A stretch of 64,000 bases of DNA from Candidatus Planktophila versatilis (lineage in GTDB: Bacteria; Actinomycetota; Actinomycetes; Nanopelagicales; Nanopelagicaceae), in contig NZ_CP016778.1 of assembly GCF_002288265.1 (NCBI RefSeq), forward strand, positions 248,001 through 312,000, in the 5' to 3' direction. The number at the start of each line of letters is the position of its first letter. Position 1 is the stretch's first letter. Under the pieces are notes generated by a model. It did not search any database. It was not told the DNA's origin and saw nothing but the letters and a program-made list of their open reading frames with translations. Shown here in pieces: positions 18,275 through 30,345 of this stretch. Both the position numbers and the translations under genes were made by a program.

Positions 18275-18643
18275 GAAGAGTCGCCCGGATCACCGCGTTG
18301 CAGCTCTAGATTAATTTCTAGACTGGACCGAGGAAAGTCCGGACTTCACAGAGCAAGGTGGTGGGTAACGCCCACCCGGAGCAATCCGCGGGAAAGTGCA
18401 ACAGAAAGTAAACCGCCAATAGCAATATTGGTAAGGGTGAAACGGCGGTGTAAGAGACCACCAGTGCATGTAGTGATACATGTAGCTATGTAAACCCCAC
18501 CTGAAGCAAGACCAAGAAGATAGTGCGTTGCTCGCGCAAGCTATCGGGTAGGTTGCTTGAATCTGCAAGCAATTGCAGATCTAGATGGATGGTGATCGGT
18601 TCGAAAGAACTACAGGATCCGGCTTATAGGGCGACTCTTCTTC
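18275..18643 (+). ncRNA. rnpB: RNase P RNA
   Basis: Bacterial class A RNase P RNA. The 5' end GAAGAGTCGCCCGG pairs with the 3' end CGGGCGACTCTTC-like strand (P1 helix). Conserved cores are visible: GAGGAAAGTCCGGACTTCACAGAGCAAGG near 18330, GGTGGGTAACGCCC, GGAGCAATCCGCGGGAAAGTGC and ACAGAAAGTAAACCGCC, plus the late GGATGGTGATCGG. It matures tRNA 5' ends. Its last ~25 nt recur as direct repeats downstream and mark the edge of a genomic island. Confidence 0.96.
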
Positions 18644-18850: not shown

Positions 18851-19498
18851 ATGGTGGTCATGCAAATCAATATCGACAAGAAAACTGGAATTTTATCAGG
18901 GGTCATAGCAGTACTCATTGGCGTCACTATTTTCTTAATGGGCACTCAAAATAGCTCTTCAGGTTTGTTTGGGATGAACCACTCAGCCATGGATGGAGAA
19001 AACAACTCAACGAACTCCAGTTTGCTTGGTTCAGATGCAATGTTCTTTGAAATGATGATTCCTCATCACCAACAAGCCGTTGATATTTCTGATCTGGCCA
19101 TCTCTCGTTCCAAAGACACCGAACTTATTGAATTGGCTAAGAAAATTAGAAATGGACAAGCCGCTGAGATTATTCAAATGAAAAATTGGCTTGCAGATGC
19201 GGGCGATAGTTCAATGATGGGCCACGGTATGAATCACGGAATGAACCACTCCATGGGTGATGGAATGGGTGGAATGCTCACCGAATCTGAACTGGATACC
19301 CTTAACTCTCTTAGTGGCTCAAAATTTGATAACTACTGGCTGAGGGGCATGATCACCCATCATGAAGGTGCTCTCCACATGGTTACGATGATTAAGGATT
19401 CGAATCGCTCAGAAATTCAAAACTTTGGAAAAGAAATTGTCTCTGTTCAAACTGCCGAGATTGAGCAAATGAAAAAAATGCTCAATCGAATTGGATAA
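18851..19498 (+). CDS. DUF305 family exported protein, copy 1
   Basis: 215 aa. An N-terminal membrane anchor/signal (ILSGVIAVLIGVTIFLMG) is followed by two related DUF305 helical repeats. The first has MMIPHHQQAVDISDLAISRS and the second MITHHEGALHMVTMI. The linker between them is Met/His rich (MMGHGMNHGMNHSMGDGMGG), suggesting copper binding, in line with DUF305 genes commonly accompanying copper systems. It is followed closely by a BNR-type gene. An ATG at 18860 is an alternative start. Confidence 0.88.
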   Translation: MVVMQINIDKKTGILSGVIAVLIGVTIFLMGTQNSSSGLFGMNHSAMDGENNSTNSSLLGSDAMFFEMMIPHHQQAVDISDLAISRSKDTELIELAKKIRNGQAAEIIQMKNWLADAGDSSMMGHGMNHGMNHSMGDGMGGMLTESELDTLNSLSGSKFDNYWLRGMITHHEGALHMVTMIKDSNRSEIQNFGKEIVSVQTAEIEQMKKMLNRIG

Positions 19499-19511
19499 GA
19501 AAGACTTAAGT

Positions 19512-20327
19512 ATGCTTAGTTTTAGAAGAATTACTATTGGATTTCTAGTTCTCACACTTGTGGGTGTATTTGGGTTCAGCAATATCGCATACGCCCAAAC
19601 TCTTGACTCAGTCTCACACATCCACCATGTCAAAGTCATTGAAAAAAACGTGCTTGTCTTAACTCACGAGGGCCTCTTTGAATTAGTTGGTAAGAATGAA
19701 ATGAAGTTAGTTGGAAAAGATAAGTTTGATGTAATGGGATTTACAACTTTGGATAAAGCTTTGATTGCTAGCGGACACCCTGCGCAAGGTTCCAATATGC
19801 CTAATCCAATTGGCCTTGTTAGATCCATTGATGGTGGCTTAACCTGGAAAGCAGTCTCTTTGGTCGGAAAAGTTGATTTCCACTTGCTATAAGGCGCCAA
19901 AACCGATCTTTACGGTGCAGATTCACAAACTGGAAAATTAATGTACTCAGCAGATTCTGGTCTGACATGGCGAACTTTAGGAACAAACATCTATACAGAT
20001 ATTGCTGTTTCACCTGAAATGTCAGGAATGGCTATTGCGATTAAGGATTCAGACTTACTGCTCACCGCTAATTCTTTCAAATCATCGACAAAGATCAAAA
20101 GTAATCTCAAAATTACTCAAGTCGAATGGCGTAAATCAGGACTTTATGTATTGAGTGGCAGTTCGCTCTTTAAATCAACAAATACAGGTAAAACTTGGAA
20201 GAAACTGAACACATTTAGGGGCGCTCCTGGCATTCTGAGTGCCAGTGATCAGATGATGCTGGTAACTGTGGTCTCAGATATCTATACGTCGTTGGATGCT
20301 GGCAGGAAATTCAGACTAGTTCCCTAA
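19512..20327 (+). pseudogene. BNR/sortilin-like exported protein, interrupted by TAA (copy 1)
   Basis: A 272-codon frame beginning with a signal peptide (MLSFRRITIGFLVLTLVGVF), then SVSHIHHVKV and BNR-type repeats (SIDGGLTWKA, ADSGLTWRTL, NTGKTWKKL, LDAGRKFR). It is broken by an in-frame TAA at 19890-19892. The intact paralog at 27184 has GAA at the matching position (HSLEGAG versus HLL*GAK), so a single-base nonsense change is enough. It resembles the F510_1955-type 'glycosylhydrolase' family, which is a naming inference only. The rest of the frame is undamaged, so the stop is recent, suppressed or tolerated. Confidence 0.8.
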
Positions 20328-22566: not shown

Positions 22567-22591
22567 TCCGGCTTATAGGGCGACTCTTCTT
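22567..22591 (+). repeat. rnpB-tail direct repeat (exact)
   Basis: 25 nt identical to the last part of rnpB (18618-18642); its core is CCGGCTTATAGGGCGACTCT. It sits 7 nt after a terminator and before the LmeA-like cassette. It is interpreted as an attachment-site remnant. Confidence 0.9.
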
Positions 22592-22660
22592 TTCTAAATT
22601 CACAGGGTATTCACACCAGTGGTTACCGATTTAAAGAATTTGAGCCGATAGGTTCCGCGA

Positions 22661-23329
22661 ATGAAAATTAAAACTATTGCAATTTCTGCAACAGCATTTA
22701 TTCTTTTGGGTGGAGTATTGGGAGTTCAACAATACATTTCATCGCAGATTACTTCAAAGGTTGAGCGAGAGATGCCCAATGCTTCAGGTATTAGCGCCTC
22801 TGTTCCATTGGCAGATGTACCAAGCAATCTGACTTCTGATTCAATTAAATCTGCAGACATAAACATCAAGAGTTTTGCTCTTAAAGGGAGCGGCACAAAG
22901 ACTTCGCTAGACATCTCCGCATCAAATATCAGTAAAGCAAAACCAACCCTAGTTGGCTCTTTGGAAGTAACGGCTACTATTCCTGCATCGACAATTACAA
23001 AATCATCCGAATTCAATGATGCACAAATTGTGGGGAATACTTTACAAGTGTCTGCAGGAGCAGGTAGAATGAGCACAGCGCTCCTAATTCCAAAGTACTC
23101 AAATAGCCAGCTTTATTTTGAACTTCAGAGCGTTTCAATCCTTGGCAATCAAATCCCTGCTTCATCATTACCGGCCGATCTTCAAACTCAAATTAAAAGC
23201 AAGAACCAAAGAAGCCTGACGCCACCTAAGGGGCTTAAAGTTAAATCAGTTTCACTCAGCAGTAAGGGGCTCTCTGTCAAAATGTTCGGTAGCAATGTTC
23301 AACTGGGCAATCTCGGGTCCGGCTTATAG
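22661..23329 (+). CDS. LmeA-like (DUF2993) phospholipid-binding protein
   Basis: 222 aa. N-terminal anchor TIAISATAFILLGGVLGVQQYI, then SKVEREMPNASGISASVPLADVPSNL and a long beta-rich lipid-binding-like domain, matching DUF2993/LmeA. Members act in cell-envelope lipid handling. A TAGGTT box 6 nt before the ATG suggests a leaderless mRNA. The last codons (GSGL-stop) are supplied by the rnpB-tail repeat at 23318, so the insertion event fixed the C-terminus. Confidence 0.8.
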   Translation: MKIKTIAISATAFILLGGVLGVQQYISSQITSKVEREMPNASGISASVPLADVPSNLTSDSIKSADINIKSFALKGSGTKTSLDISASNISKAKPTLVGSLEVTATIPASTITKSSEFNDAQIVGNTLQVSAGAGRMSTALLIPKYSNSQLYFELQSVSILGNQIPASSLPADLQTQIKSKNQRSLTPPKGLKVKSVSLSSKGLSVKMFGSNVQLGNLGSGL

Positions 23330-23343
23330 GGCGACTCTTCTTC
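23318..23343 (+). repeat. rnpB-tail direct repeat (exact, 26 nt)
   Basis: Identical to rnpB 18618-18643. It overlaps the end and stop codon of the LmeA-like gene and opens the first non-coding module. Confidence 0.92.
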
Positions 23344-23351
23344 ACATAATA

Positions 23352-23366
23352 GTTACTGCGAGTAAC
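23352..23366 (+). promoter_or_regulatory. palindrome GTTACTGCGAGTAAC, module 1
   Basis: Perfect 6-3-6 inverted repeat, 8 nt after the rnpB tail and before the first short RNA. The same site recurs at 28039 and 30023 in the same place. It may be an operator for the short-RNA promoter or a recombinase arm site. Confidence 0.65.
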
Positions 23367-23391: not shown

Positions 23392-23440
23392 ACGGTTGTT
23401 TGGTAGTAATTAGGACTTGGTCAATTCCAAGTCCTTTTTG
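23392..23440 (+). ncRNA. short terminator-hairpin RNA, copy 1
   Basis: Core TTTGGTAGTAAT (23399-23410), then hairpin AGGACTTGG/CCAAGTCCT with 6-nt loop and T5. One of six copies. The likely -10 is CATAAT about 20 nt upstream of the core. Predicted ~50-nt transcript; boundaries inferred. Confidence 0.65.
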
Positions 23441-23481
23441 CTTTCTATTCCAACTCTTAAGTTATGTGCAATACTTCCACT

Positions 23482-23531
23482 ACGCATGTTTGGTAGTAAT
23501 CGGGACTTGGTTTATATCCAAGTCCCCTTTG
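23482..23531 (+). ncRNA. short terminator-hairpin RNA, copy 2
   Basis: Core at 23489-23500, hairpin GGGACTTGG/CCAAGTCCC, loop TTTATAT, then CTTT. Extended -10 TGCAATACT at 23467-23475 places the start near 23482. Confidence 0.65.
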
Positions 23532-23615
23532 CTTTAGCACATTCATCTTTCATCCACAGGCCTCTTCATCACACAGTTTCGATAGTGGGTAACGTCCTAA
23601 CTTCACGCTCGTGAT

Positions 23616-23690
23616 GGGGGCGTGTTGTAATTGGCAGCCTGTTCGTTTACCAAACAATCGGAGAGGGTTCGAACCCCGTCGTCTCCACCA
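23616..23690 (+). tRNA. tRNA-like RNA with encoded CCA, copy 1
   Basis: 75 nt. The 7-bp acceptor stem is GGGGGCG/CGTCTCC, then A and CCA. The T loop TTCGAAC has three G-C pairs. A14, G18, G19 and A21 equivalents are present in AATTGGCA. The anticodon loop reads TTACCAA (nominal ACC, codon GGU). The D stem is only about two pairs and the anticodon stem has mismatches, so it is not a normal decoding tRNA as drawn. A conserved sibling at 28303 argues against random decay. Confidence 0.55.
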
Positions 23691-23703
23691 CAGTCTTAGT
23701 TAC

Positions 23704-23741
23704 TGCAGTTCGGTCTATTGGTAATGGTCAAGAGAATTGCA
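23704..23741 (+). ncRNA. conserved hairpin after tRNA-like RNA, module 1
   Basis: Stem TGCAGTTC/GAATTGCA (8 bp with one G-U), inner GGTC/GGTC, loop TATTGGTAAT. The loop contains TTGGTAA, the exact complement of the TTACCAA anticodon loop 50 nt upstream. The outer stem changes with pairing kept in module 2. Confidence 0.6.
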
Positions 23742-23756
23742 ATAGCTGTGCATGGG

Positions 23757-23789
23757 AGAGCCTCGAGAAATCGGGGCTCTTTCTTTTTT
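23757..23789 (+). terminator. tetraloop terminator, family copy B
   Basis: AGAGCCTCGA-GAAA-TCGGGGCTCT, 10 bp with one T-G pair, followed by TTTCTTTTTT. It ends module 1. Confidence 0.9.
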
Positions 23790-23791
23790 AC

Positions 23792-23812
23792 TCTGGCTTA
23801 GAGGATGATTCT
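23792..23812 (+). repeat. decayed rnpB-tail repeat
   Basis: TCTGGCTTAGAGGATGATTCT matches the rnpB tail at 16 of 21 positions. It sits right behind a terminator, like the exact copy at 22567, and precedes the largest cassette. Confidence 0.55.
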
Positions 23813-23910
23813 GGCAATGACTGAAGGTAGTTGTGTATTTTTAGTCACAATTTATTAGCGAGTCCTTCTCAGAAGGCCGACAAAATAGTCGAAACTGGTA
23901 AAGTTTTGCC

Positions 23911-24309
23911 ATGCACTCGGCAACTAAAAGCAATCAGCACTTAGCCCTGCTCTTTGCAATTTTTCTAGCTATATTTTCAACTGGGTTAGTGATTGCCCAT
24001 CAGTGCAATGCCATGTCCAGTAATCCAGTTTCTACGCAACACCATCACTCTGATGCTGTGTCCGGATCAACTGTTGCAAGCAATCCACTCAATGTCTCAT
24101 CAAATAGTAGTGAGCGATTAGTTGATTCTGGATGTGTGGCACTTTTCATCGTAGTGCTTTTACTTGGTAGAAAGTTTTTAGATGTTAGAGCCCCGAGGTC
24201 TAGATTGACTCGTTTTGTGAACTCAGTTCGAGAATCATCTGCTATTTATCGACCGCAGGTCTTCCAGCTAGCTCTTTCTCGTCCTCAATTGGGAGTCATC
24301 CGCATCTAA
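23911..24309 (+). CDS. small His-containing membrane protein (DUF6153-like), copy 2
   Basis: 132 aa. Signal/anchor LALLFAIFLAIFSTGLVIAHQC, a His cluster STQHHHSD, one membrane helix CVALFIVVLLLG, a basic tail and the C-terminus PQLGVIRI, shared with the protein at 20461 (LQLGIIRI). Both directly precede a DUF305 gene by about 45-55 nt. It probably acts with DUF305 in metal handling at the envelope; this is inference from context. Confidence 0.65.
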   Translation: MHSATKSNQHLALLFAIFLAIFSTGLVIAHQCNAMSSNPVSTQHHHSDAVSGSTVASNPLNVSSNSSERLVDSGCVALFIVVLLLGRKFLDVRAPRSRLTRFVNSVRESSAIYRPQVFQLALSRPQLGVIRI

Positions 24310-24362
24310 TCCTTTCTCGATTAAATAGACAGTGTCTTATCAAATCGAGCAAAGGATTCCAA

Positions 24363-24920
24363 ATGTTTAAGAAAACCGTATTACTGATTGCCGTTATTTC
24401 CCTTCCCTTCTTTACCCAGCCTGCAACAGCTGGTTCACATGCCAGTAGTCTGAAAAGTCTGGGCGCGAATGAGATCATGTTTGCTCAAGGCATGATTCCT
24501 CATCATCAGCAAGCGATTGACATGTCCACATCGGCCCTTGCGCGCTCTTCGAATACCAAAGTAAAAGCTCTTGCCTCAGGAATTATCTCTGATCAGAAAA
24601 AAGAGATTAACCAGATGAAGTATTGGCTTGCGGCAAAGAAAGCGCCCCTAAAGATGGGGCATGACATGGGACATGGCATGGGCATGGACGGAATGCTTTC
24701 TGAGAGTCAAGTTGCTGAATTGAAAAAGTTGCGGGGTCCAAAGTTCGATACCGCCTTCCTTAAAGCCATGATTGAGCACCACCAAGGTGCGCTCACTATG
24801 TTGTCAATGCTGAGTGGTTCAAAGAATTCAGAAGCGAGAGCACTGTCGAAGGAGATCCGAGCCGCGCAATCGGGGGAGATCTCATTAATGCAAAAGCTAC
24901 TGATGGAAGTCTCGAAGTAA
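24363..24920 (+). CDS. DUF305 family exported protein, copy 3
   Basis: 185 aa with signal peptide MFKKTVLLIAVISLPFFTQPATA. Motifs NEIMFAQGMIPHHQQAIDMST and FLKAMIEHHQGALTMLSML, linker MGHDMGHGMGMDGM. Clearly paralogous to copies at 18851 and 20915. It heads a run of cell-wall genes rather than a Rieske gene. Confidence 0.9.
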   Translation: MFKKTVLLIAVISLPFFTQPATAGSHASSLKSLGANEIMFAQGMIPHHQQAIDMSTSALARSSNTKVKALASGIISDQKKEINQMKYWLAAKKAPLKMGHDMGHGMGMDGMLSESQVAELKKLRGPKFDTAFLKAMIEHHQGALTMLSMLSGSKNSEARALSKEIRAAQSGEISLMQKLLMEVSK

Positions 24921-24941
24921 GCGAAGTTTTGGAGGCTGAGC

Positions 24942-25940
24942 ATGAAGCGCTTCATCGCTGCTTTTTTAGTAGTTTTCTTTCTATTTGAACCTTCCTTTGC
25001 GTGGGCAGCTCCCTCGGTTTCAGGTGCGCAACGGGAGGTAGATAGATTGCGCACTCTGGCTGCGGATAAATACGAAGCAGCAAATGAAGCAACCATAAAA
25101 ATTGCTTCACTCGAAAGAGAAACGACAAGTTTAAAAGAGCAGGAATCTCTCATCAAATCTGACCTGGAAGAGGCGAAAAAAGTTCTTGGCCGTATCGCTC
25201 TTCAAAATTATCAAGGCTCAGGATTTGGAACGGGACTCGAGTTGCTACTCAGCACCGATCCTTCGCAATATCTCTCCGATGCTTCCATGTTAAATGTGGT
25301 TGGTACCCGATATGCCAATGAAATTCGCAAGTACATGCTAACGAAGCAGAAAGTTCAATCCTCACAGCTTGTAATAGCCGACCGAGTGAATCTGCTCAAG
25401 TCCGAAAATATCAAACTAAGTAGAGAGGTTTCTGCAGCCAAAGCCGCCCTTGCGAAGGCAACTCGAATCCTTAACTCATTAAAAAAGGAAGATCGAGAGC
25501 GGCTGCTTAGTCAAGAAGCTGCAAGAGAAAATAAGATATTTAAAGATTCACAGAAATATGCGACTAGTTACGTCGGTGACAATTCAAGAGGTTCCACTGC
25601 GCTGAAATTTGCACTCAAACAGATCGGTGACATCTATGTGTGGGCAGCTGCCGGGCCAACTCGCTGGGACTGTTCCGGGCTCACGATGCGCGCTTATCAA
25701 GCAGCCGGGGTGTCACTACCTCACTCTTCTCGAGTGCAAGTGAGGTATGGAAAGTCGATTTCTTACGGTTCGTTGAAGCCCGGTGATTTACTTTTCTTTG
25801 GCAAACCAATTAGCCATGTCTCCATATATATGGGTGGCGGAAAAATGGTGCAAGCACCCCGACCAGGAAAAAAAGTCGAAGTAGTCAAATTAACGAAAAT
25901 GTTTGGCAGAAAACCATTTGTAGGGGCTAGGCGACTATGA
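24942..25940 (+). CDS. secreted NlpC/P60 endopeptidase 1
   Basis: 332 aa. Signal peptide MKRFIAAFLVVFFLFEPSFAWA, a coiled-coil region about residues 25-190, then an NlpC/P60 domain with catalytic Cys in WDCSGLTMRAY and His in SHVSIYMGGG. It should cut peptidoglycan peptide stems (RipA-like layout). Strong ribosome site TTGGAGG. The stop overlaps the next start (ATGA). Confidence 0.93.
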   Translation: MKRFIAAFLVVFFLFEPSFAWAAPSVSGAQREVDRLRTLAADKYEAANEATIKIASLERETTSLKEQESLIKSDLEEAKKVLGRIALQNYQGSGFGTGLELLLSTDPSQYLSDASMLNVVGTRYANEIRKYMLTKQKVQSSQLVIADRVNLLKSENIKLSREVSAAKAALAKATRILNSLKKEDRERLLSQEAARENKIFKDSQKYATSYVGDNSRGSTALKFALKQIGDIYVWAAAGPTRWDCSGLTMRAYQAAGVSLPHSSRVQVRYGKSISYGSLKPGDLLFFGKPISHVSIYMGGGKMVQAPRPGKKVEVVKLTKMFGRKPFVGARRL

Positions 25941-27151
25941 CTAAGTTTAAGCTAATTAGAGGGCTAACTACTCTCGTCATTGTCTTCTTTTCGGTTTCGA
26001 TATTGCCACCAGCTTTTGCCACCAAACATAAGCCTACGATTGCTCAGATTGAAGCGGCTAAGAAAATTGAAGAGGAAAAGAAGAAGAGTGCTGCAATTTC
26101 TGCAAAAAAACTCTCATCAGCATTAGGCAACCTCAAGAAACTTGCAATCCTTGCAGCTGAGGCCAACAAAAAATATGTATCGGCGATAAATGAGCTGGCG
26201 ATTGCCGTCAGAGAACTTAACGTTGCGACCAAGGTGATGGAGGCAGCTGAAGCAGAGGTTTTTCAAACTCATCGTGATATTGGTAAATTGGCGGTAGCGG
26301 CTTATATCTCGGGAAGCAATATGGGCGGAATTGAAAATCTTTTAAGCGCCAATGGTCCGCAAGATGCAATTGACACTATCTCCTTACTTGATAATTTAGG
26401 ATCAAAAAATAAGGTCGCACTTGAACGATTCAAGGCGGCTGAAGAAATCGCCAAGCAAGCTAAAGCAATCGCGGTCATTGCAAAGGAACGTCAAGTAAAG
26501 GTTACTGAAAAAGTTGCGGTAGCGAAGAAGGAAGCTGATGCCATTCGAGATGCTCAGCAAGCAGAAGTTGATAAACTGCAAGCGGTCCAAGATAAATTAC
26601 AAAAGGAGCTTGCTTCCGCTAGAAAGGTACGACTGACCCTTGAGCAGAGGCGTCAGTTGGCGCTCTTGGAAGAGGCCAGATCGATCGAAGCTGGCAAGGT
26701 TCCTAATCAGGCAAAAGTCTGGCGTGGTGGCGGTCCCACAGGGGTAGCAAATTCAAGAACCACCGTCGATCAGAGGCTGAAGGCTGTTGAATTTGCTAAA
26801 CGACAAGTGTTGGCAAAGAAACCATATGTTTGGGGCGATGAAGGACCAAACGCATTTGATTGCTCAGGGCTGGTTTACGCTGCCTATAAATCTGCTGGGC
26901 TGGGTTGGCCAATCTGGGATCGCCTTAACTCAGGGTTGTTTTATACCTACACCAAGCAGATTCCAATAGCAGAAATGGAACCGGGTGACTTAATATTTTA
27001 TTCCTACAAAGGAACACAAAGCACCATTCACCATATGAGTATTTATGCAGGTGGCGGAATGATGTGGGAGGCCAGATCAACCAAAAAAGGACTTAGGTAT
27101 TCAGATATTTACAGTATGCCCGGAATGATGCCATTTGCGGGCAGGGTTTAG
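25937..27151 (+). CDS. secreted NlpC/P60 endopeptidase 2
   Basis: 404 aa, same layout as its neighbour: signal peptide ending near PPAFA, Lys/Ala/Glu-rich coiled coil (about 30-250), NlpC/P60 domain with FDCSGLVYAAYKSAGL and the His in HHMSIYAGGG. The domain's substrate loop differs (WPIWDRLNSGLFYTY). It may process peptidoglycan together with the first enzyme. Translationally coupled. Confidence 0.93.
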   Translation: MTKFKLIRGLTTLVIVFFSVSILPPAFATKHKPTIAQIEAAKKIEEEKKKSAAISAKKLSSALGNLKKLAILAAEANKKYVSAINELAIAVRELNVATKVMEAAEAEVFQTHRDIGKLAVAAYISGSNMGGIENLLSANGPQDAIDTISLLDNLGSKNKVALERFKAAEEIAKQAKAIAVIAKERQVKVTEKVAVAKKEADAIRDAQQAEVDKLQAVQDKLQKELASARKVRLTLEQRRQLALLEEARSIEAGKVPNQAKVWRGGGPTGVANSRTTVDQRLKAVEFAKRQVLAKKPYVWGDEGPNAFDCSGLVYAAYKSAGLGWPIWDRLNSGLFYTYTKQIPIAEMEPGDLIFYSYKGTQSTIHHMSIYAGGGMMWEARSTKKGLRYSDIYSMPGMMPFAGRV

Positions 27152-27183
27152 TCGGAAATAGAAGCAATAGAGATGAGGAAAAA

Positions 27184-28005
27184 ATGAGGACGTTAGCCAT
27201 AAAGAGCATAAGAGTCAGATTTCTAACCCTTGCCATCGTTGCGTTCTTGGGTTTGAGTGACGGAGCAAGCGCTGCAACTCTTGATTCCGTCTCACATATA
27301 CATCATGTGAAAGTTGTAGAAAGCAAGATACTTGTTTTAACTCATGAGGGGCTTTATGAGCTAGTTGGCAACAATGAGATGAAGTTAGTAGGAAAAGATA
27401 AAATTGATGTGATGGGGCTGACACCCTTAGGAAAGGTACTATTTGCAAGCGGACACCCTGCTCAAGGATCTAAAGCACCAAACCCAATTGGCCTCGTTAA
27501 ATCTATGGATGGAGGATTAAGTTGGAAAGCCATCTCTTTGGTTGGGAAAGTTGATTTCCACTCTTTAGAAGGTGCCGGCAGTGAGCTCTATGGCACAGAT
27601 TCACAGAGTGGGAATTTACTGTATTCATCAGATTCTGGAAAGACATGGAAATCTTTAGGGACGAGTACCTTTGCAGATATTGCAGTTTCACCCGAGCTGC
27701 CAGGAGTAGCTATAGCACTTAAGAATTCTGAATTGCTAATTACCAAGAATGCATTTAAATCAACAACTAAAATTAAGAATAGCCTCAAATTCACCCAGAT
27801 CGAATGGCGAGATTCGGGTCTATACGCTCTGGGCGGAAACTCGCTCTACAAGTCAACAAATTCTGGTAAAACTTGGATAAAGCTCAGCACATTTAAAGGC
27901 GCTCCTGGGATTCTCAGCGCTAGCGATCAGTTAATGCTGGTAACTGTGGGGTCAGATATCTATACATCCACCAATTCCGGAAAAAGTTTCAAAGTGATTG
28001 CTTAA
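27184..28005 (+). CDS. BNR/sortilin-like exported protein, intact copy 2
   Basis: 273 aa with a signal peptide ending near GASA, then TLDSVSHIHHVKVVESKILV and four BNR-like Asp-box repeats (SMDGGLSWKA, SDSGKTWKSL, NSGKTWIKL, TNSGKSFKV). It is the intact relative of the interrupted gene at 19512. The beta-propeller fold and F510_1955-like family are inferred. Ribosome site GAGGAAAA. Its stop is followed at once by a decayed rnpB tail. Confidence 0.85.
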   Translation: MRTLAIKSIRVRFLTLAIVAFLGLSDGASAATLDSVSHIHHVKVVESKILVLTHEGLYELVGNNEMKLVGKDKIDVMGLTPLGKVLFASGHPAQGSKAPNPIGLVKSMDGGLSWKAISLVGKVDFHSLEGAGSELYGTDSQSGNLLYSSDSGKTWKSLGTSTFADIAVSPELPGVAIALKNSELLITKNAFKSTTKIKNSLKFTQIEWRDSGLYALGGNSLYKSTNSGKTWIKLSTFKGAPGILSASDQLMLVTVGSDIYTSTNSGKSFKVIA

Positions 28006-28030
28006 TCCAGATGATGAGGTGACTCTTCTT
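28006..28030 (+). repeat. decayed rnpB-tail repeat
   Basis: 19 of 25 positions match the rnpB tail; the last ten, GACTCTTCTT, are exact. It opens module 2. Confidence 0.75.
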
Positions 28031-28038
28031 TAGATCTA

Positions 28039-28053
28039 GTTACTGCGAGTAAC
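28039..28053 (+). promoter_or_regulatory. palindrome GTTACTGCGAGTAAC, module 2
   Basis: Same sequence and place as 23352. The flank TAGATCTA between tail and palindrome is shared with module 3. Confidence 0.65.
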
Positions 28054-28077
28054 CGTGCATCTATGCAATACTTTCTC

Positions 28078-28128
28078 CACGACGGTTTGGTAGTAATCGG
28101 GACTTGGTTAATCACCAAGTCCCTTTTG
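28078..28128 (+). ncRNA. short terminator-hairpin RNA, copy 3
   Basis: Core 28086-28097, hairpin GGGACTTGG/CCAAGTCCC, loop TTAATCA, T4. Extended -10 TGCAATACT lies about 20 nt upstream of the core. Confidence 0.68.
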
Positions 28129-28168
28129 CTTTCCACTTCAACTCTCAAGTTATGTGAGATACTTGGCA

Positions 28169-28219
28169 CACAATAGTTTGGTAGTAATCGGGACCTGGTT
28201 AATAGCCAGGTCCCTTTTG
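28169..28219 (+). ncRNA. short terminator-hairpin RNA, copy 4
   Basis: Core 28177-28188, hairpin GGGACCTGG/CCAGGTCCC, loop TTAATAG, T4. One stem pair is C-G where the other copies have T-A, a compensated change showing that the stem matters. Confidence 0.68.
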
Positions 28220-28302
28220 CTTTCCACAGAATTGATTTATCAACAGGTAGTTTCGGTTCTAATTTGGAGTACTGCTCACTTGCGTAACTTCGCTCCAGTG
28301 AT

Positions 28303-28377
28303 GGGGGCGTGTTGTAATTGGCAGCCTAATCGTTTACCAAACTATTGGAGCGGGTTCAAACCCCGTCGTCTCCACCA
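28303..28377 (+). tRNA. tRNA-like RNA with encoded CCA, copy 2
   Basis: 75 nt, same acceptor stem, D region and anticodon loop TTACCAA as copy 1. The T stem here is GCGGG/CCCGT, fully paired with one G-U, and the anticodon stem has four of five pairs. Relative to copy 1, a pair next to the anticodon stem changes G-C to A-T. Confidence 0.55.
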
Positions 28378-28392
28378 CAGTCTTAGATGTTT

Positions 28393-28426
28393 CAACTCGA
28401 CCTATTGGTAATGGTCAAAAGAGTTG
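28393..28426 (+). ncRNA. conserved hairpin after tRNA-like RNA, module 2
   Basis: Stem CAACTC/GAGTTG, inner GACC/GGTC, loop TATTGGTAAT. The loop is unchanged from module 1 while the stems differ but still pair. Confidence 0.6.
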
Positions 28427-28443
28427 TATCAGCTTTGCATGGG

Positions 28444-28469
28444 AGGGCCTCGAGAGATCGGGGCCTTTT
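28444..28469 (+). terminator. tetraloop terminator, family copy C
   Basis: AGGGCCTCGA-GAGA-TCGGGGCCTT, 10 bp, GNRA loop, then TT. It ends module 2. Confidence 0.88.
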
Positions 28470-28487
28470 CCAATTCCTTGGCCCCTA

Positions 28488-29989: not shown

Positions 29990-30014
29990 TTCAGCTTTTA
30001 GGGCTACTCTTCTT
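29990..30014 (+). repeat. rnpB-tail repeat, near exact
   Basis: 21 of 25 positions match the rnpB tail. It opens module 3. Confidence 0.82.
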
Positions 30015-30022
30015 TAGATCTA

Positions 30023-30037
30023 GTTACTGCGGGTAAC
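30023..30037 (+). promoter_or_regulatory. palindrome GTTACTGCGGGTAAC, module 3
   Basis: Same site as 23352 and 28039 with one change that leaves the GTTAC/GTAAC arms intact. Confidence 0.62.
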
Positions 30038-30061: not shown

Positions 30062-30111
30062 CACGCATGTTTGGTAGTAATCGGGACTTGGTTAATCACC
30101 AGGTCCCTTTT
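30062..30111 (+). ncRNA. short terminator-hairpin RNA, copy 5
   Basis: Core 30070-30081, hairpin GGGACTTGG/CCAGGTCCC with a T-G wobble, intermediate between copies 3 and 4. -10 TGTAATACT at 30048-30056. Confidence 0.66.
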
Positions 30112-30156
30112 GCTTTCGATTGCAGCTCTCAAGTTGTGTGCAATAATGATTATGCA

Positions 30157-30206
30157 CTTCGGGTTTGGTAGTAATTAGGACTTGGTTAATTCCAAGTCCT
30201 TTTTGC
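30157..30206 (+). ncRNA. short terminator-hairpin RNA, copy 6
   Basis: Core 30164-30175, hairpin AGGACTTGG/CCAAGTCCT, loop TTAATT, T5. Like copy 1 in the stem base. Confidence 0.65.
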
Positions 30207-30211
30207 TTTTT

Positions 30212-30345
30212 CACAGTCATATTTCATCCTCAAGCCCCTTCATCACACAGTTTCGATGGTGGGTAACGTCTTAATTTCACGCTCGCGATGAGGGCTCTTG
30301 CTATTTTCAATACTCTTGATTATTGCCCTTTTCATTCATCTAGTT
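30212..30345 (+). other. truncated module 3 end (tRNA-like RNA lost)
   Basis: 30212-30290 aligns with the segment before the tRNA-like RNA in module 1 (CATCACACAGTTTCGAT, then GGGTAACGTC). After CGCGATGAGGG the tRNA-like sequence is missing. A poor GGGC...GCCC hairpin with TTTT near 30327 may be the remains of the terminator. Confidence 0.55.

Follow-up and report, generated by a model that had tools for sequence, protein, structure and literature searches.

Organization of the cassette array

The window analyzed here is a 64,000-nt stretch of the genome of Candidatus Planktophila versatilis (assembly GCF_002288265.1, contig NZ_CP016778.1, positions 248,001–312,000 of the forward strand). Downstream of the RNase P RNA gene rnpB, it contains an array of three cassettes with predicted short RNAs, two of which also carry a module composed of a tRNA-like RNA, a downstream hairpin and a terminator-like hairpin. 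Comparison with related cassettes indicates that the first ~13 nt of a short RNA, variable part included, pair with the tRNA-like RNA from the same cassette, namely with the loop of its anticodon arm and the 3′ strand of the stem. As judged from the sequences, this pairing in trans is near-certain. The features of the array are as follows (positions are those of the window).

18277–18642, plus strand: rnpB (Rfam RF00010, 310.7 bits); its 3′ end (18618–18642) is the 25-nt border repeat that recurs at cassette borders
22567–22591, plus strand: border repeat, identical to the rnpB 3′ end (sequence)
23318–23342, plus strand: border repeat, likewise identical, at the left edge of cassette 1 (sequence)
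23352–23366, plus strand: palindrome GTTACTGCGAGTAAC ahead of short RNA 1 (sequence)
23392–23444, plus strand: short RNA 1, with 5′ antisense seed, terminator hairpin and predicted start; cognate of tRNA-like RNA 1 (14 contiguous pairs, −19.4 kcal/mol)
23482–23535, plus strand: short RNA 2, cognate to neither tRNA-like RNA of the window (duplex energies, seed comparison)
23616–23690, plus strand: tRNA-like RNA 1, including ACCA, with 4/5 T-stem pairs (143.7 bits with the family model R1, alignment, covariation)
23647–23653, plus strand: loop UUACCAA of tRNA-like RNA 1, within the antisense target 23647–23661
23706–23739, plus strand: downstream hairpin 1, loop UUGGUAA at 23718–23724 (complements the loop of tRNA-like RNA 1)
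23756–23783, plus strand: terminator-like hairpin closing module 1 (sequence, conserved copies)
28006–28030, plus strand: decayed border repeat, six substitutions, left edge of cassette 2 (sequence)
28039–28053, plus strand: palindrome GTTACTGCGAGTAAC, cassette 2 (sequence)
28079–28132, plus strand: short RNA 3, 12/13 pairs with tRNA-like RNA 2, interrupted by an internal mismatch; a poorer fit than that of short RNA 4
28170–28223, plus strand: short RNA 4, cognate of tRNA-like RNA 2 (14 contiguous pairs, −18.6 kcal/mol)
28303–28377, plus strand: tRNA-like RNA 2, loop 28334–28340, antisense target 28334–28348 (ARAGORN, Rfam, R1)
28393–28426, plus strand: downstream hairpin 2, loop UUGGUAA at 28405–28411 (sequence, alignment)
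28443–28470, plus strand: terminator-like hairpin closing module 2 (sequence)
29990–30014, plus strand: decayed border repeat, four substitutions, left edge of cassette 3 (sequence)
30023–30037, plus strand: palindrome with one substitution, cassette 3 (sequence)
30063–30116, plus strand: short RNA 5, cassette 3, where the tRNA-like RNA is lost (sequence pattern)
30157–30209, plus strand: short RNA 6, 13/13 pairs with the tRNA-like RNA of another genome (L081)
30263–30301, plus strand: scar, leader of the tRNA-like RNA fused to the terminator tail, with the tRNA-like RNA and hairpin gone (same scar in genome G494)

Both ARAGORN and Rfam recognized module 2 as a tRNA (28303–28377, Gly-ACC), and neither listed module 1. 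With Rfam RF00005 (cut-off 29), module 2 scored 37.7 bits and eight listed tRNA-like copies 36.5–51.3 bits. No other Rfam family exceeded its gathering cut-off in the module regions examined; matches below cut-off (mir-9412, sX12, IMES-3, RAGATH-22, tmRNA, mascRNA and others) were taken as chance or as belonging to the tRNA clan. The palindrome GTTACTGCGAGTAAC, with at most one mismatch, occurs genome-wide in the three cassettes only (reversed control: one site per strand), so a factor binding it, if any, may be dedicated to the cassettes. The core pattern of the short RNAs, with at most three mismatches, has no sites in the whole 1.33 Mb genome beyond the six short RNAs of the window.

Distribution of the family

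A DNA search found the region in 15 of 100 genomes (the source genome included), all of the same genus. With module 1 as the query, the source genome returned module 1, module 2 and one 31-base terminator fragment. A pattern scan of named genomes yielded 53 stretches, including Ca. Planktophila lacus (NZ_CP016769) and other Nanopelagicaceae. The alignment comprised 52 distinct sequences of the tRNA-like RNA and hairpin; six acidobacterial and viral pattern matches (L029, L044, L049, L063, L071 and L072), which resembled other tRNAs or were unrelated, were excluded. RNAalifold detected compensatory changes at 13 of 32 pairs, distributed over the acceptor and anticodon stems and the downstream hairpin.

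The covariance model R1 was built from this family. Ordinary tRNAs also score about 50–62 bits with it, and the matches in 384 of 396 genomes across the phylum are therefore background: only the source genome exceeded 85 bits, and the next best match reached 61.6. For 201 genomes of the order, which all belong to one family, the matches listed include 70 with at least 85 bits, spread over 51 genomes. Both genome searches used strict filters, with few candidates scored per genome. The cassettes thus seem confined to the Nanopelagicaceae, the family of the window. R1 was also run on 81 of 208 sources (overlapping copies were excluded by hand), giving 87 matches, or 86 after removal of one duplicate; 75 modules that reached 85 bits and had 200 nt or more of upstream sequence were eligible for the analyses below. 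A later run on 47 more sources gave 43 matches, of which 33 were duplicates, six were new above 85 bits and four were new and weak.

Several public contigs of metagenome-assembled genomes bear a Nanopelagicaceae-type module under a foreign title: Bifidobacterium breve (L036, L037, L042, L051, L058 and L069), Streptomycetaceae (L038, L054 and L070) and Ferrovum (L052). These contigs are probably mislabelled or misbinned. A far-diverged candidate on the minus strand (L158:104–221) scores 51 bits, within the range of ordinary tRNAs; its loop UAGCCA and the loop UGGCUA of a hairpin upstream may form a third loop pair, which hints that more distant members exist below the model cut-off.

Pairing of the short RNAs with the anticodon arm

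The sequence-only reading of the window proposed that a constant segment of short RNAs 2, 4 and 5 is complementary to the anticodon loop. The segment GUUUGGUA was in fact found in all six short RNAs, as was UUUGGUA, which that reading had already placed in all six. The shared core does fit the loop, but the complement in trans is longer, 13–14 nt, and includes the variable part. TTTGGTA has 13 plus-strand copies in the window, so the common heptamer is weak evidence there, and the case rests on relatives.

In the window, short RNA 1 on tRNA-like RNA 1 and short RNA 4 on tRNA-like RNA 2 each form 14 contiguous pairs. The predicted duplex energies of these cognate combinations are −19.4 and −18.6 kcal/mol, as against −13.2 kcal/mol for short RNA 1 on tRNA-like RNA 2 and −11.0 kcal/mol for short RNA 4 on tRNA-like RNA 1; those of the remaining four short RNAs range from −12.2 to −16.1 kcal/mol. 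The first 13 nt are free in five of the six predicted short RNA folds.

Upstream of the tRNA-like RNA, 64 of the 75 eligible modules have a stretch with at least 11 (11–15) contiguous pairs, and 55 have at least 13. This stretch starts 110–140 nt before the tRNA-like RNA in 60 modules and 219–226 nt before it in four. Among main-clade modules with at least 260 nt of upstream sequence, an RNA with at least 12/13 pairs is present in 45 of 46, and the exception (L182) has a 12-nt run. In a permutation test on 49 distinct targets, the summed score was 595.5, while the maximum in 20,000 permutations was 418; the mean score was 12.15 for cognate and 7.46 for non-cognate combinations. Specificity is not absolute, with at least 13 contiguous pairs in 80 of 2352 non-cognate combinations versus 33 of 49 cognate ones. 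Because relatedness inflates tests of this type, nearest neighbors with different targets were compared as well. The own target was fitted better than that of the neighbor in 32 of 35 main-clade pairs, which include pairs differing at just 2 of 111 positions outside the arm. All six later modules of at least 85 bits, which lay outside the permutation test, have 11–15 contiguous pairs at the expected place (two of them, L199 and L200, have an identical target and antisense stretch); of the four new weak matches below 85 bits, one shows the expected pairing.

A tree of 48 main-clade modules built without the loops requires at least 32 changes in the target and likewise at least 32 in the antisense stretch, a rough figure, since this tree is poorly resolved. 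The 45 main-clade cognate pairs comprise 585 positions, of which 569 are Watson–Crick, 12 are G:U and 4 are mismatched; the non-Watson–Crick positions being mostly G:U favors pairing of RNA. Sequence variation centers on the paired arm: mean entropy is 0.99 bits there, 0.12 in the rest of the tRNA-like RNA, 0.09 in the loop and 0.50 in the part downstream of the tRNA-like RNA. The upstream RNA also tracks the variable loop base: of 72 modules (six missing), 52 have A/U and 18 G/C, and two (L084 and L186) are artefacts, the pattern having caught TGGC inside the seed and given an apparent A:C. Both predicted partners are short and end in terminator-like hairpins, with covariation of RNA type. 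On sequence, the putative antitoxin pairs specifically with its own putative toxin, as in RNA-only (type VIII-like) toxin–antitoxin systems. The antisense contact in trans proposed from the window is strongly upheld by the permutation test, the neighbor pairs, the tree and the six further modules; the variable pairing half, the cognate short RNAs, the array attached to rnpB, the palindrome and the loss pattern had been overlooked.

A second architecture was found in eight intact modules that have no linear antisense RNA (L161, L176, L152, L154, L158, L171, L168 and L090). They carry instead a longer upstream RNA of about 115 nt behind the same type of palindrome (found by pattern in seven of the eight and seen in the alignment in L168). 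This RNA holds a short hairpin, with predicted energies of −0.9 to −6.2 kcal/mol, whose loop is complementary to the loop of the tRNA-like RNA.

Probable contact with the downstream hairpin

TTACCAA at 23647–23653 and 28334–28340 and its exact complement TTGGTAA at 23718–23724 and 28405–28411 were confirmed in both modules, as was the observation that the hairpin stems (23706–23739 and 28393–28426) differ; each of these stems nevertheless pairs. In 78 modules with readable loops (two skipped), the loop base and the hairpin base are A/U in 60, G/C in 15, G/U in three and A/C in none. An earlier tally of 75 modules (nine skipped) gave 59 A/U, 12 G/C, two G/U, no A/C and two misread rows. Loop and counter-loop hence covary in homologs, and independent divergence of the two was not found.

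The tree requires four loop switches, two of them on well-supported branches, with the expected direction in nearly all pairings; so few switches leave the sign test below significance. In the main clade, both loops are practically invariant and uninformative for this contact, and the isolated loop–loop duplex has a computed energy of only −5.8 kcal/mol. The kissing contact in cis suggested from the window is thus likely from the covariation, and less well shown than the contact in trans. The accompanying proposal of a T-box-like contact between UGGU and the 3′ ACCA end found no support: several distant modules end in UCCG or UCUG, the 3′ end varies without a matching change in the hairpin, and the hairpin base tracks the loop base.

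Loss pattern and spare antisense RNAs

Among the 75 eligible modules, 60 combine a cognate antisense RNA with an intact tRNA-like RNA, four have a cognate antisense RNA and fewer than five T-stem pairs, eight are the intact modules with the longer complementary RNA, and three have no complement. All three of the latter are broken: L153 has 5/7 acceptor and 4/5 T-stem pairs, L159 has 2/5 T-stem pairs and an altered loop, and L178:3273 has no normal 5′ half and 4/7 acceptor pairs. An intact tRNA-like RNA without a complementary upstream RNA was found in none of the 75 (with a post hoc criterion, and eight modules judged by eye). The T-stem is weakened despite a cognate RNA in module 1 of the window, L185 and L177 (4/5 pairs each) and in L156 (2/5), where an insertion is apparently responsible.

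The reverse state, with the antisense RNA kept and the tRNA-like RNA gone, is seen at 30063–30209 of the window, where cassette 3 keeps the palindrome and both short RNAs. Genome G494 of the same species has the same fusion of leader and terminator tail, G520 has lost the tRNA-like RNA too, with a different junction, and in L062 a short RNA is followed by a cut-off tRNA-like RNA. The tally of short RNAs gave 72 with a tRNA-like RNA, 15 without and five truncated; of the 15, L012, L038 and L184 are wrong matches, L156 has a diverged tRNA-like RNA, L185 and L217 are doubtful, and the candidates L042, L193, L228 and L234 were assigned by pattern alone or a short look. Nine of 19 non-cognate or tRNA-less RNAs pair 13/13 with the tRNA-like RNA of another module, whereas 2000 seed shuffles gave a mean of 0.3 and a maximum of four.

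Genomic location

In 16 of the 86 rows, the fetched stretch includes rnpB itself, upstream and in the same orientation; 46 rows have a border-like copy with at most five substitutions within 3 kb upstream. Such copies frequently lie near −200, where there is one short RNA, or near −290, where there are two, and many rows show a further copy at about +178 downstream. Repeats of an RNA-gene 3′ end, as expected at the borders of an integrative element, are thus present, with exact copies in the window. Some modules elsewhere follow tRNA-Arg or tRNA-Val genes. The L156 module is flanked by a repeat derived from tRNA-Arg; no tRNA-derived border repeat was found at tRNA-Val in L151 and L160 or at tRNA-Arg in L164. 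Streamlined genomes of such bacteria are thought to hold little mobile DNA; the arrays look mobile and are attached to rnpB or tRNA genes.

The ORFs (open reading frames) of the array are cargo-like by Pfam (DUF305, Rieske, NlpC/P60, a BNR/Sortilin-type repeat protein, ABM and mandelate racemase). A search of 50,697 phage records with module 1 and one of 72,556 plasmid records with module 2 both found nothing; a single IMG/VR pattern match looks unrelated. A TTATCCACA-like box, which we take to resemble a DnaA box, was seen by eye to recur between the short RNA and the tRNA-like RNA (e.g., L005, L006 and L013).

Between two exact rnpB-end repeats lies a 751-bp unit (22567–23342) with one ORF (22661–23329) that has no Pfam match and whose stop codon is inside the border repeat; it resembles a single-gene cassette. 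By their translations, two adjacent ORFs in 19491–20327 are similar to the beginning and the end of the single ORF 27184–28005; the first-island copy thus appears to be disrupted. Proteins with DUF305 occur in both islands (18851, 20915 and 24363), as if cargo had been duplicated.

Interpretation of the cassettes

We tentatively favor, at just short of even confidence, an RNA-only addiction cassette resembling a toxin–antitoxin system, with a tRNA-like effector. Such a cassette would produce two RNAs: the tRNA-like RNA with its hairpin and terminator, and, upstream on the same strand and apparently from its own promoter, an antisense RNA of about 53 nt whose 5′ end, as the covariation shows, pairs with the anticodon arm in its loop and the 3′ strand of its stem. 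In the precursor, this loop is probably also bound in cis by the downstream hairpin. Once cut free, the tRNA-like RNA may harm or burden the cell, perhaps via translation, and the antisense RNA would neutralize it by occupying the arm. The cis hairpin might silence the unprocessed precursor and the antisense RNA then cover the mature form, an order that is a guess, and spare antisense RNAs would protect against the tRNA-like RNAs of other cassettes. Seemingly obligatory pairing, one-sided loss, spare antidotes and arrays together make an addiction module the simplest account, and conservation of the acceptor and T-arm suggests a need for RNase P or another tRNA-binding factor.

Several points weigh against this interpretation. 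Transcription, processing and toxicity of the cassette RNAs are predicted, and no host target is named. RNA-only toxins are rare, and the possible toxicity features G3:U70, A73 and CCA are not conserved across the family. Rfam takes module 2 and the distant copies for tRNAs, which makes a role as a plain tRNA-like RNA possible. The criterion for an intact tRNA-like RNA was set after the data had been seen and places module 1 of the window itself among those with a weakened T-stem; loss of the tRNA-like RNA could simply be deletion between short GGGG repeats; and four of the 19 non-cognate RNAs are false pattern matches. Cross-pairing within the genome is predicted to be weaker, not absent. In the second architecture, complementarity spans 4–6 nt as judged by eye, and the hairpin of L161 is barely predicted (−0.9 kcal/mol). 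As for mobility, Pfam revealed no integrase or recombinase in the 16 ORFs of the array and its right edge (other genomes were not searched), and the two PF00589 tyrosine recombinases of the genome lie more than 300 kb from the array (serine integrases were not sought).

Two specific mechanisms were considered and dropped. Mischarging by alanyl-tRNA synthetase via G3:U70 is not general, position 3:70 being G:U in 44 of the 52 aligned copies, U:A in six and other in two. The motif UUGGUAGAGC of tRNA D-loops, which we take to resemble the short RNA core, suggested D-loops as a host target; it was not enriched (nine genome sites versus nine in the reversed control).

Antisense RNAs set copy number, incompatibility or immunity in ColE1-type plasmids and the satellite phage P4. 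By analogy, the tRNA-like RNA could serve establishment or replication of the cassette as a mobile element, with the antisense RNA setting its copy number, incompatibility or immunity. This explanation fits much of the same evidence as an addiction cassette: the bounding by copies of the rnpB 3′ end, the rapid diversification of matched pairs, which resembles incompatibility groups, the spare antisense RNAs that fit tRNA-like RNAs of other genomes, and the TTATCCACA-like box seen by eye in many modules. We consider it unlikely all the same, as the 16 ORFs contain no replication or recombinase family by Pfam, the phage records (module 1) and the plasmid records (module 2) gave no match, the one IMG/VR pattern match looks unrelated, and element control does not require that every intact tRNA-like RNA keep its antisense RNA.

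The tRNA-like RNA may alternatively be a sponge or processing guide for short RNAs that regulate other genes. Sponges of small RNAs derived from tRNA are known in enterobacteria, and the short RNAs here are compact, with mostly free 5′ ends. A regulator of conserved genes, however, could hardly afford a seed that has changed at least 32 times (on the poorly resolved tree) and yet stayed matched, and cassettes with short RNAs but no tRNA-like RNA persist, which makes this role improbable. A further possibility is an odd Gly- or Ala-type tRNA active in translation, with the antisense RNA tuning its use. ARAGORN calls the main clade Gly-ACC, G:U prevails at 3:70 and distant copies reach 51.3 bits in the Rfam tRNA family; but between clades the loop changes in length by 2 nt, the anticodon is variously called as Gly, Ala or Val, the discriminator and encoded 3′ CCA vary, and the anticodon stem is hypervariable, so that we regard it as quite doubtful. 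A cis-acting T-box-like riboswitch, whose hairpin would sense the anticodon loop together with the 3′ ACCA, would explain the covarying complementarity of loop and hairpin and is otherwise discounted almost entirely, given the varying 3′ ends, the hairpin base that follows the loop base, and a terminator-like hairpin that ends the RNA and is followed in many loci by a border repeat (+177/+178) with no sign of a regulated downstream gene.

Returning to the addiction cassette, we consider it possible, and hold it with more reserve than the effector reading itself, that the family is a new RNA-only system of genetic conflict. It would combine tRNA-shaped effectors with private, fast-diversifying antidotes in arrays attached to rnpB and tRNA genes at their 3′ ends; spare antidotes would confer immunity to foreign cassettes, and the antidote would come in two architectures for the same kind of effector, a linear antisense RNA and a structured kissing-loop RNA. 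If the effector reading is true, the cassettes provide a tRNA-shaped RNA toxin with an RNA antidote, as well as about 25 natural lock-and-key RNA pairs in the main clade, a library in which the evolution of RNA specificity can be studied. Whatever the function, the covariation makes the RNA–RNA contact in trans and the kissing contact in cis directly testable, and cassette arrays at rnpB are revealed in the streamlined genomes of abundant freshwater actinobacteria.

Comparison with known systems

To our knowledge, no described family combines a tRNA-like RNA with matched hypervariable antisense RNAs. A literature search found no report of these cassettes, and Rfam recognizes the modules solely as tRNA, where at all.

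The T-box shares with the cassettes a codon-like triplet opposite the anticodon loop; here, however, the tRNA-like RNA and the hairpin are in one RNA, the 3′ contact is unconserved and no regulated gene was seen. Trans-encoded type I toxin–antitoxin systems likewise have a neighboring short antisense RNA with its own pairing region, but their target is the mRNA of a toxic peptide, whereas here it is a tRNA-like RNA. Hypervariable pairing of antisense loops that defines compatibility groups is found in RNA I/RNA II of ColE1 and the CI RNA of P4; those antisense RNAs overlap or copy their target, while here the antisense RNA would be a separate same-strand gene about 110–230 nt upstream.

The tRNA-Other of Bacillus cereus (PMC3399842) is similarly a tRNA-like element in a larger RNA beside a genomic island; it is a single pseudo-tRNA, and the abstract mentions no matched antisense RNA. 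In CreTA, as summarized in PMC8501985, CreA guides a CRISPR effector to repress the toxin promoter, and the mini-ORF of CreT sequesters a tRNA. The two systems have in common an RNA toxin (putative here) adjacent to a guide-like small RNA antitoxin, partial complementarity between them and the targeting of tRNA biology. They differ in that the search of 16 ORFs revealed no Cas family, and in that the pairing target in the present cassettes is the RNA itself, which has the shape of a tRNA.

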